This document shows, one piece after another, positions 17,490 through 20,540 of a DNA stretch of 43,443 nucleotides. This DNA is from Flavobacterium sp. Lineage in GTDB: Bacteria > Bacteroidota > Bacteroidia > Flavobacteriales > Flavobacteriaceae. The stretch is from assembly GCA_010365135.1 (NCBI GenBank), contig JAAFGY010000010.1, forward strand, positions 1-43,443. The letters run 5' to 3'. Each line of letters begins with the position of its first letter. Position 1 is the stretch's first letter. Under the pieces are notes generated by a model. That model was given only the letters and a program-made list of their open reading frames with translations. It had not been told where the DNA came from and did no database searches. Both the position numbers and the translations under genes were made by a program.

Positions 17490-17517
17490 GCAACCTTTTA
17501 TAATTTCATTCCTCTTA
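17490..17517 (+). promoter_or_regulatory. Putative ECF-type promoter GCAACCTTTT-N13-TCTTA
   Basis: Same motif and spacing at 18072-18099. Confidence 0.5.
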
Positions 17518-17548: not shown

Positions 17549-17959
17549 ATGAAAAGATTAAAATTGAAAGCTATCGCTTTAGTATTATTGGTAACAACAG
17601 GATTCGTCTCTTGCAACAATGATGATGACACTCCATCATTTACAACCAAAAAAACTTTGGTTAGCGTAGTAACTGGGCCTACAACTGGTGCTGTAAATCA
17701 AGAATTGACATTGAATGTTACCTTTGCAGTAGATAACAGCTGTGGTGCGTTTAATAAGTTTATTGAAACCACAACCGACAAAACCTCAGTTATTGAAGTA
17801 GAAGCCAAATATGAAGGTTCAAATTGTGGAACAACTGCTGCCACAAAAACTTCAACTTACAAATTTAAGGCTACAACTGTTGGAACTTATATCCTTAAGT
17901 TTAAAAAATCGGCTACTGAGTTTGTTACTCAAACCATTGTGATCACTGCTGCCCCATAA
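17549..17959 (+). CDS. Small lipoprotein, two Cys, predicted beta-sandwich
   Basis: Lipobox TGFVSC followed by NNDDD; same size and layout as 18154-18564 product. Confidence 0.8.
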   Translation: MKRLKLKAIALVLLVTTGFVSCNNDDDTPSFTTKKTLVSVVTGPTTGAVNQELTLNVTFAVDNSCGAFNKFIETTTDKTSVIEVEAKYEGSNCGTTAATKTSTYKFKATTVGTYILKFKKSATEFVTQTIVITAAP

Positions 17960-17982: not shown

Positions 17983-18008
17983 AAAGGCTGGTTTTTCAAC
18001 CAGCCTTT
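17983..18008 (+). terminator. Terminator after first lipoprotein gene
   Basis: aaaggctggtt tttc aaccagccttt hairpin. Confidence 0.75.
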
Positions 18009-18071: not shown

Positions 18072-18099
18072 GCAACCTTTTTCATATAACACAATCTAA
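18072..18099 (+). promoter_or_regulatory. Putative ECF-type promoter GCAACCTTTT-N13-TCTAA
   Basis: Same motif and spacing as 17490-17517. Confidence 0.5.
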
Positions 18100-18153: not shown

Positions 18154-18564
18154 ATGAAAAAAATCGTTTTATTTTTAATTCTAATCACCTCTGTTTTAAG
18201 TTGCACTCTTGATGATGACAATCCTACTTATACTTATAGTGTTTTGCCTGTTGATAGCTATGTTGTGCCTGATAGTTTTACTTTAGGACAAACCTATGAA
18301 ATAAAATTGAAGTACCAGAAACCGACTGCTTGTCACATTTATCAAGGAATTTATTATGACAAAAACTTAAACACCAGAACAATTGCCATTCAGACTGCTC
18401 TACAAAACGAGCAGGTTTGTACAACTGAAATCCCTCCTGTTTCAGAAGTTTCGTTTAACTTTACAGTTACGAATACTGGTTCCTATATCTTTAAATTTTA
18501 CAAAGGTGAAGATACTACTGGAAAAGATATTTTTGAAGATGTTGAGATTCCGGTAGTTCCATAA
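18154..18564 (+). CDS. Small lipoprotein, paralog-like to 17549-17959 product
   Basis: Lipobox SVLSC followed by TLDDD; ...TACHIYQ...QVCTTE...NTGSYIFKF. Confidence 0.8.
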   Translation: MKKIVLFLILITSVLSCTLDDDNPTYTYSVLPVDSYVVPDSFTLGQTYEIKLKYQKPTACHIYQGIYYDKNLNTRTIAIQTALQNEQVCTTEIPPVSEVSFNFTVTNTGSYIFKFYKGEDTTGKDIFEDVEIPVVP

Positions 18565-18576
18565 AAGAAAAAATCT

Positions 18577-19119
18577 GTGATATTAGAAAAGCTAATTAGT
18601 GACTGCAAAAAAAACCAACCAAAAGCTCAAGAACAATTGTATCGATTGTTTGAGAAAAAGTTTTTTGGGTTATGTTTGAAATATTCCTCTAGTTATGCCG
18701 ATGCACAAGATAATTTTCAAGAAGGATTCTTAATTATATTTCGAAAAATCAATCAATACAGCGGTAAAGGTTCTTTTGAAGGCTGGGCAAAAAGAATACT
18801 AATTAATAACGCACTTCAAAAATACAAAGGAGTGCGTTTTATGGAAGTATTAAACGATAATATCCCTGATGTTGATGTAGAAATAGACGAAGAAGAAATA
18901 TCTCTAGACTTTTTAATGCAAATTATTCACGAACTCCCCGATCAGTACCGAATTGTTTTTAGTTTATATGTATTAGATGATTATTCACATCAAGAAATTA
19001 GCGAAATGCTCTCCATTTCTACAGGTACAACTAAATCGAATCTTCATAGAGCGAGACTTATCTTGAAAGAAAAAATTGAAAAAAAAACAGTGACTAATCA
19101 AAAAATATCGGCAAAATGA
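18577..19119 (+). CDS. RNA polymerase sigma-70 family (ECF-type) factor
   Basis: Region 2 (DAQDNFQEGFLIIFRKINQYSGKGSFEGWAKRILINNAL) and region 4 (LPDQYRIVFSLYVLDDYSHQEISEMLSISTGTTKSNLHRAR); GTG start. Confidence 0.95.
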   Translation: MILEKLISDCKKNQPKAQEQLYRLFEKKFFGLCLKYSSSYADAQDNFQEGFLIIFRKINQYSGKGSFEGWAKRILINNALQKYKGVRFMEVLNDNIPDVDVEIDEEEISLDFLMQIIHELPDQYRIVFSLYVLDDYSHQEISEMLSISTGTTKSNLHRARLILKEKIEKKTVTNQKISAK

Positions 19120-20540
19120 AAGAAAATAAAAATATAGACCGATTATTTCAAGAACAATTCAGAGGCTTTGAGGAAACTCCGGACAATCAAGTTTGGTTGA
19201 ATATTGTAGCTGAATTAAAAAAAGATAAAAAACGAAAAGTAATTCCGTTGTGGATAAAATGCTCCGGAATAGCTGCGGCATTTTTACTTGGTTTGTTCAC
19301 TCTGAATATGAATCAACCCTTTGATTCAAAAACTGAAAACCGCATTGTTTTAGAAGCGAAAATTATAAAAGATTCCTCTAATAAAAAGCATATCTATCCC
19401 AAAAATAGTTCGAAAGAAAACCAAATTGTTATCCATTCCAAAGAAAATTCAAAGCACCAAAAAGAAATAATTAATACTAATTTTTCAAAATCAAATACTA
19501 ACGATGAAAAAAACGTTAACCCTTATGGTTCCCCAAAAGTCCTCGTTTACCAAAAAAAGAATCCTAATAATGCTGAAGTTTTTCTACCAAAAAGTAATTT
19601 GTCGTTAAATCAATTGGCAACAAATGAAAGCAACACGAACCACTCATTAAATGCGGAGAACATTACAAATTCAAACTCTTTAGCATACGAACCCAATCAA
19701 AACCTAGAAAAAAAGGATATCAGAGAGAAAGAAGAATCAAAAAAGGAAGTATTAACAAATACAGAAGTACCAAACGAATTAGAAGAAATTTTAAAAGCCA
19801 AATCTGCCAAAAAAATTACTATAATTTCTAATTCAACAAACAAATGGCATATTACGCCAAACGTTGCTCCATTGTACCTGAATGCAAATTCTGGAGGCTC
19901 TCCTATTGATGAACAGCTGTCAGATTACGAAAAAAAATCAGACAAAAGCGTTAGTTTTGGTATAGGCGTACAATATGCCGTCAGTAATAAAATAGTAGTT
20001 CGAACGGGAATTAATAAATTAGTCGTAGGCTACAACACGACCAACTTGTTGTATTCCACAGGATTAACAGCCAATAATTTGAGAAACATTGAATATTTTT
20101 CAAACAATGCTGTTAAATTTGTAGATGAAAAAAATTATGGTTTATTAACAACAACAGAAAAAGACATGCAAAGTACTAGTACGGGAAATTTAAACCAAAA
20201 AATGGGCTATTATGAACTACCCATGGAAATTTCATACGCTGTTTTAGACAAAAAATTTGGAATAAATCTAATTGGAGGGTTCAGTACTTTGTTCCTAAAT
20301 GAGAATAGAATTTCATTAAAATCTTCTCAATCAAATATTGAACTTGGCGAAGCAAAAAACTTGAATCAAGTCCATTTTAGCTCTAATGTAGGTTTAGGAT
20401 TTAAGTACCAAATCACAAAATCATTCCAAATTAATATGGAACCCATGGTTAAATATCAAATAAATACCTTTTCAAATAACTCTGGCGACTTTAAGCCCCT
20501 ATTTATGGGATTGTATTCTGGTATAAGTTATGGCTTTTAA
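19116..20540 (+). CDS. Putative dual-membrane-spanning anti-sigma factor: cytoplasmic N-terminus, TM helix, disordered linker, C-terminal outer-membrane beta-barrel
   Basis: ATGA overlap with sigma gene; TM CSGIAAAFLLGLFTL; Asn/Lys/Ser-rich linker; C-terminal alternating barrel strands ending in aromatic F (SGISYGF). Confidence 0.7.
   Translation: MKENKNIDRLFQEQFRGFEETPDNQVWLNIVAELKKDKKRKVIPLWIKCSGIAAAFLLGLFTLNMNQPFDSKTENRIVLEAKIIKDSSNKKHIYPKNSSKENQIVIHSKENSKHQKEIINTNFSKSNTNDEKNVNPYGSPKVLVYQKKNPNNAEVFLPKSNLSLNQLATNESNTNHSLNAENITNSNSLAYEPNQNLEKKDIREKEESKKEVLTNTEVPNELEEILKAKSAKKITIISNSTNKWHITPNVAPLYLNANSGGSPIDEQLSDYEKKSDKSVSFGIGVQYAVSNKIVVRTGINKLVVGYNTTNLLYSTGLTANNLRNIEYFSNNAVKFVDEKNYGLLTTTEKDMQSTSTGNLNQKMGYYELPMEISYAVLDKKFGINLIGGFSTLFLNENRISLKSSQSNIELGEAKNLNQVHFSSNVGLGFKYQITKSFQINMEPMVKYQINTFSNNSGDFKPLFMGLYSGISYGF

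Follow-up and report, generated by a model that had tools for sequence, protein, structure and literature searches.

A Dma/Reo-type anti-sigma factor and its ECF sigma factor in Flavobacterium, with a predicted promoter element across the Flavobacteriaceae

The lipoprotein, sigma and anti-sigma genes

The window, the whole stretch of 43,443 nt that was analysed, belongs to a 3.64-Mb draft assembly of Flavobacterium and contains an operon of three genes preceded by a second lipoprotein gene. The features are as follows.

17490 to 17515, forward strand: promoter-like element GCAACCTTTT-N13-TCT before the upstream lipoprotein gene, with one mismatch to the conserved element
17549 to 17959, forward strand: paralogous small lipoprotein of 136 aa with SCNNDDD after the lipobox (phmmer 8e-9 to the operon lipoprotein)
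17983 to 18008, forward strand: terminator-like hairpin aaaggctgg...ccagccttt between the two lipoprotein genes, read by eye
18072 to 18097, forward strand: promoter-like element of the operon, GCAACC (-35) N16 ATCT (-10), before the lipoprotein gene at 18154
18154 to 18564, forward strand: small lipoprotein (ORF) with a CTLDDD export-type signal and a predicted Ig-like beta-sandwich
18577 to 19119, forward strand: ECF sigma factor of 180 aa (Sigma70_r2 4.6e-11, Sigma70_r4_2 2.6e-15)
19116 to 20540, forward strand: Dma/Reo-type anti-sigma factor of 474 aa, assigned from the model, profile comparison and conservation

The sigma gene has a GTG start 12 bp past the lipoprotein stop, and its product matched sigma regions 2 and 4 above the Pfam cut-offs. 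An earlier note on this DNA had given the coordinates of the lipoprotein, sigma and anti-sigma ORFs, the 12-bp gap and the ATGA overlap, all of them exactly. The lipoprotein paralogue and the promoter-like elements before both lipoprotein genes are absent from that note. The hairpin at 17983 to 18008 suggests that the two lipoprotein genes lie on separate transcripts.

The operon was found to be kept in about 60 loci. Dozens of Flavobacterium loci have the three-gene order, as do Winogradskyella, Mesonia, Salegentibacter and Zunongwangia, and where the gene order is conserved a short ATGA-type overlap of the sigma and anti-sigma genes is usual. Beside the sigma-anti-sigma pair of a Dokdonia MAG and of a MAG labelled Chlorobiota, no lipoprotein match was detected. 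The nearest named relative of the anti-sigma factor is that of Flavobacterium franklandianum (80% identity). In F. muglaense the operon lipoprotein is separated from the sigma gene by a third, unrelated lipoprotein of 168 aa, which has the same GCAACC element (2860-2885 of the locus). One contig, deposited as a Klebsiella pneumoniae MAG, carries a Flavobacterium-type Dma fragment (81% identity) and is probably misbinned.

The operon lipoprotein was modelled as a beta-sandwich with a pLDDT of 90, and a comparison of this model with the PDB gave no match at E below 0.001. In the alignment the lipobox cysteine and C60 never vary, and C89 hardly does; the paralogue at 17549 to 17959 is 22% identical in the alignment. 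The mature N-terminus reads CTLDDD here and CSLDDD in the family. Since it resembles the acidic export signals SDDFE and SDDDD that were tested for lipoproteins of F. johnsoniae and B. fragilis (PMC5080379), the operon lipoprotein is likely to be surface-exposed. An assignment to NigD was rejected: the profile comparison aligned the signal peptide and the acidic export motif only, and NF051862, the NigD family, was not among the NCBIfam matches of the protein. A NigD-like match elsewhere in the same genome was likewise discarded, since it looks like a match to the signal peptide of a periplasmic adaptor-like protein. The different lipoprotein partner that the earlier note had proposed for this operon was thus borne out.

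Architecture of the anti-sigma factor and its kinship with Dma/Reo

The anti-sigma factor was modelled by AlphaFold2 with 37 orthologs. Its parts, in gene coordinates, are these.

19116 to 19223, forward strand: presumed sigma-binding domain at the N-terminus, residues 1-36 (matched by hhalign to the N-termini of Bacteroidales Dma)
19251 to 19310, forward strand: transmembrane helix, residues 46-65 (helix of the model, preceded by Lys/Arg-rich residues)
19311 to 19769, forward strand: disordered tether, residues 66-218 (pLDDT below 50, 34% conservation, variable length)
19845 to 20537, forward strand: predicted outer-membrane beta-barrel, residues 244-474 (strands of the model, best Foldseek matches)

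In the model, helices 5-14 and 24-36 precede the transmembrane helix, and the Lys/Arg residues immediately before this helix are consistent with an N-inside orientation. The following 153 residues are disordered. A short helix (221-233) then leads to strands between residues 244 and 473, the barrel blocks mostly having a pLDDT of 75-94; as read from the strand list, the barrel is probably 8-stranded. When the model was compared with the PDB by Foldseek, the best matches were the outer-membrane barrels Pla, OmpT, OmpW and OmpA, with E-values that are weak to modest for a query comprising the whole chain with its tether; the top target-normalised TM-score was 0.60, with OmpA. The C-terminal half matched Pfam OMP_b-brl weakly (E 2.6e-5, below the curated cut-off). 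This was the sole Pfam match of the protein up to E 1, a FecR domain being absent, and no solved structure was found for its sequence relatives.

Conservation among the orthologs follows the same division, with 72% in the N-terminus, 34% in the tether and 67% in the barrel. The tether varies from 126 to 220 residues, and the barrel measures 228-239 residues in all orthologs but one. A C-terminal Phe is present in 36 of the 37. The earlier note had read from the letters an N-terminus, one transmembrane helix, a disordered stretch of about 150 residues and barrel-like strands ending in Phe; the model and the conservation support each of these, and the structure prediction it had proposed places a barrel in the C-terminal part.

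The Dma family that the note named is published. In Bacteroides thetaiotaomicron it comprises Dma1-Das1 and Dma2-Das2, and a Dma protein consists of an N-terminal sigma-binding domain, a transmembrane helix, a long disordered tether and a C-terminal barrel (PMC13088901, which cites Pardue et al. PNAS 2024); every architectural feature given in that paper is found in the protein studied here. The dma2 operon encodes a protein of unknown function (PMC13088901). A second pair, EcfO-Reo of Phocaeicola and Bacteroides, has a large anti-sigma factor that is predicted to cross the periplasm and to carry a barrel in the outer membrane; NigD lipoproteins belong to its regulon, and an outer-membrane stress response has been proposed (PMC9308784, PMC13114119). 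By description, EcfO-Reo and Dma are the same kind of protein.

The earlier note had also proposed an HMM comparison with Dma homologs. We found four Bacteroidales NigD loci in which the sigma gene is followed by a gene for a 409-425-aa protein with the Dma layout; these loci were picked by their NigD neighbourhood and layout, and no named B. thetaiotaomicron Dma is among them. Both ends of the anti-sigma factor matched these NigD-sigma-Dma proteins in hhalign, the barrel with 97.2% (E 3.5e-11) and the N-terminus with 95.4% (E 1.7e-8), at a low identity over the whole protein. By layout, neighbourhood and profile homology, we assign the product of 19116 to 20540 to the Dma/Reo type.

The N-terminal module with its transmembrane helix recurs in 10 sampled proteins encoded directly beside ECF sigma genes (E 1.8e-15 in hhalign between the N-termini). 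Their C-termini differ and include, by eye, a TonB-plug-like segment, a vWA-like region, a T9SS sorting-type domain and short forms. The constant part across these loci is the ECF sigma factor and the module, which, judged by sequence, form a modular anti-sigma superfamily with residues 1-36 as the presumed sigma binder. In a sigma tree, the module-linked sigmas, the Flavobacteriaceae Dma sigmas and the Bacteroidales NigD-Dma sigmas form one clade (SH-aLRT 90) apart from the 6 other ECFs of the same genome that were included; the tree comes from a quick search and has several long branches, which leaves its deep order unsure. The very different C-terminal parts of some of these relatives would fit an ordinary single-membrane anti-sigma factor whose C-terminal part is periplasmic, but the strand pattern, the constant barrel length, the conserved terminal Phe and the matches to outer-membrane barrels make this reading highly improbable here.

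A promoter-like element and the genes behind it

The element GCAACC-N-TTT-N11/12-ATCT was found upstream of the operon in 39 of 40 loci, against a shuffle expectation of 0.0085. In these loci GCAACC is followed by (T/A)TTT, and ATCT or CTCT stands 15-16 bases after GCAACC. When the 3.64-Mb assembly was searched with GCAACCNTTTN13TCT, two sites were obtained, 18072 before the operon and 17490 before the adjacent lipoprotein paralogue; the reversed control pattern also occurs twice, and the count alone is not significant there. Two further sites with one mismatch were set aside, as no fitting gene lies close downstream.

We then searched an evenly drawn sample of 201 Flavobacteriaceae genomes, nearly all from different genera. 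The anti-sigma profile matched in 166 of them at E below 1e-12, which indicates that most genera of the family possess a Dma/Reo-type device. These 166 genomes contained 536 sites of the element and 65 matches of the reversed control, an 8-fold enrichment, whereas the 35 genomes without a Dma match at this cut-off had 15 sites and 9 control matches. Seven of the 15 lie in one genome with a weak, divergent Dma copy seen at a looser cut-off; without this genome, 8 sites against 9 remain, which is the control level. Presence of the element and presence of Dma are associated with a Fisher p of 3e-16, a value in which lineage and genome size are partly confounded, as the Dma-less genomes are mostly small or reduced, and the control scales with them. 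Within 37 genomes of the genus Flavobacterium the same trend was observed.

The tie between the element and the Dma sigma factor, by position and co-occurrence, is correlative, and the mostly small size of the Dma-less genomes leaves some room for another sigma factor that reads GCAACC-N16-ATCT and merely coincides with Dma operons. The near invariance of the element before the operon itself and the fall of the Dma-less sites to control level speak against this, and we regard it as improbable. Upstream of the Bacteroidales nigD and sigma genes in Dma loci, the Flavobacteriaceae element was not seen. Upstream of four Bacteroidales nigD genes stands a comparable pattern, TGCAGC-N-TTT ... ATCT, whose letters may point to a related promoter code; three of the four genes adjoin a sigma gene that is accompanied by a short anti-sigma of another kind.

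The genes behind the element were then analysed in relatives. Of 62 distinct sites, mostly from the genus Flavobacterium, 35 have an ORF of 70 aa or longer whose start lies no more than 80 bp away. By a strict rule, 25 of these 35 encode lipoproteins, in some cases the operon's own and otherwise unrelated ones, compared to 2 among the window's 34 background ORFs. In other genera, 40 more sites were picked by hand among the matches listed that lie away from the operon. An ORF follows 24 of these sites; the rule classes 13 of the 24 as lipoproteins, and inspection by eye adds several. SusC-like genes were also found behind the element in relatives. The earlier note had called the lipoprotein a partner. 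Because unrelated lipoprotein families replace it behind the same element in relatives, it looks, from these sequences, more like a target and output of the sigma factor than like a core partner.

Two candidate microproteins were noticed at sites with short ORFs. At 8 sites in genomes of other genera a 28-aa single-pass peptide, e.g. MKILLIFSILIVINIILLVFSVNKKTDP, starts 25-34 bp downstream and ends in SVNKKTDP/EP; 57% of its single-base codon differences are synonymous, with 23% expected. In 25 loci we followed a second site that faces the opposite way; it lies about 1.15 kb upstream of the operon promoter, apparently beyond recA. At 12 of the 25 it is followed by a peptide of 28-31 aa with K(A/S/V)DGG at its C-terminus (42% synonymous, 24% expected) and then by a terminator-like hairpin; in other genomes the short transcript-like unit at this position lacks the peptide. 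Neither peptide was found in the window, and neither had a family match above the curated cut-off.

In three loci, element pairs stand about 180 bp apart. The first element is followed by a terminator-like hairpin with no ORF, a candidate small RNA, and the second by a basic peptide of 34 aa that begins MKEKIE. At a fourth locus, a single site without an ORF is accompanied by a hairpin. For 10 sampled loci whose sites lack a long ORF, Rfam gave no match.

A predicted switch between outer membrane and transcription

We consider it quite probable that the operon encodes a Flavobacterium Dma/Reo anti-sigma factor with its cognate ECF sigma factor, which together would act as a membrane-bridging switch that reads GCAACC promoters. 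The N-terminal domain would hold the sigma factor at the inner membrane and the barrel would sit in the outer membrane, with the tether spanning the periplasm. A disturbed outer membrane, a failed barrel assembly or a surface ligand may then trigger release, probably via proteolysis of the exposed periplasmic tether, as suggested by known anti-sigma biology. The comparative genomics points to a freed sigma factor that would read GCAACC-N-TTT-N11/12-ATCT promoters, amplify its own operon and direct the expression of lipoproteins with surface-export-type signals.

The domain order and the ECF sigma factor encoded alongside are shared with Dma1-Das1 and Dma2-Das2; the lipoprotein family differs, and the promoter element and the family-wide target list are described here. 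With EcfO-Reo, the operon shares a predicted periplasm-spanning anti-sigma factor with an outer-membrane barrel and lipoproteins as regulon or predicted output, whereas the NigD lipoproteins of that system are unrelated in sequence to the operon lipoprotein beyond the signal region. As in FecA/FecR/FecI, the state of the outer membrane would reach an ECF sigma factor through an inner-membrane anti-sigma factor; there, receptor and anti-sigma factor are separate proteins, whereas here they would be one polypeptide, without a FecR-type Pfam match. The E. coli sigmaE-RseA-DegS system likewise passes outer-membrane stress to an ECF sigma factor and on to envelope genes. In that case separate OMP C-termini activate DegS, whereas the predicted barrel here is part of the anti-sigma factor itself.

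Two other readings concern the signal and the output. Instead of responding to the general state of the outer membrane, the barrel, possibly with the operon lipoprotein bound to it, might recognise a specific ligand or glycan at the cell surface. Glycan sensing has been proposed for Dma2 (PMC13088901), and the operon lipoprotein with its export-type signal is nearly always present in these loci. However, the sigma-Dma pair is constant across lineages and the family of its lipoprotein is not (NigD, Ig-like, a type of about 290 aa), so that the lipoprotein is unlikely to be an obligate co-sensor, and we hold this reading to be a minority possibility. Similarly doubtful is vesiculation as the main output. 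Deletion of Dma1 and Dma2 in B. thetaiotaomicron leads to more vesicles (PMC13088901), but the operon lipoprotein is not of the NigD family and the related EcfO-Reo is tied to toxin protection and O-antigen length (PMC13114119, PMC9308784). Oxidative stress is, by citation, a further reported output of the design. The earlier note was right about the Dma family and its layout; as EcfO-Reo shares the design, the vesiculation it named is one of several reported outputs.

Dma/Reo proteins were described recently and have so far been studied in gut Bacteroidales (PMC13088901, PMC9308784, PMC13114119). The design as such is known, and the operon is a well-supported member; what is added is the family-wide presence, the predicted promoter code and the target set. 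With the membrane-bridging switch as the preferred reading, we lean towards a near-universal outer-membrane response of the Flavobacteriaceae that has its own promoter code and whose output would be surface lipoproteins and membrane microproteins of 28 and about 30 aa. The predicted promoter and targets make sensing and control testable with a reporter carrying the 26-bp element, and the microproteins are offered as candidates for an outer-membrane response. In a family with many free-living, non-gut bacteria, a Dma/Reo protein would connect the outer membrane with transcription through a single polypeptide.
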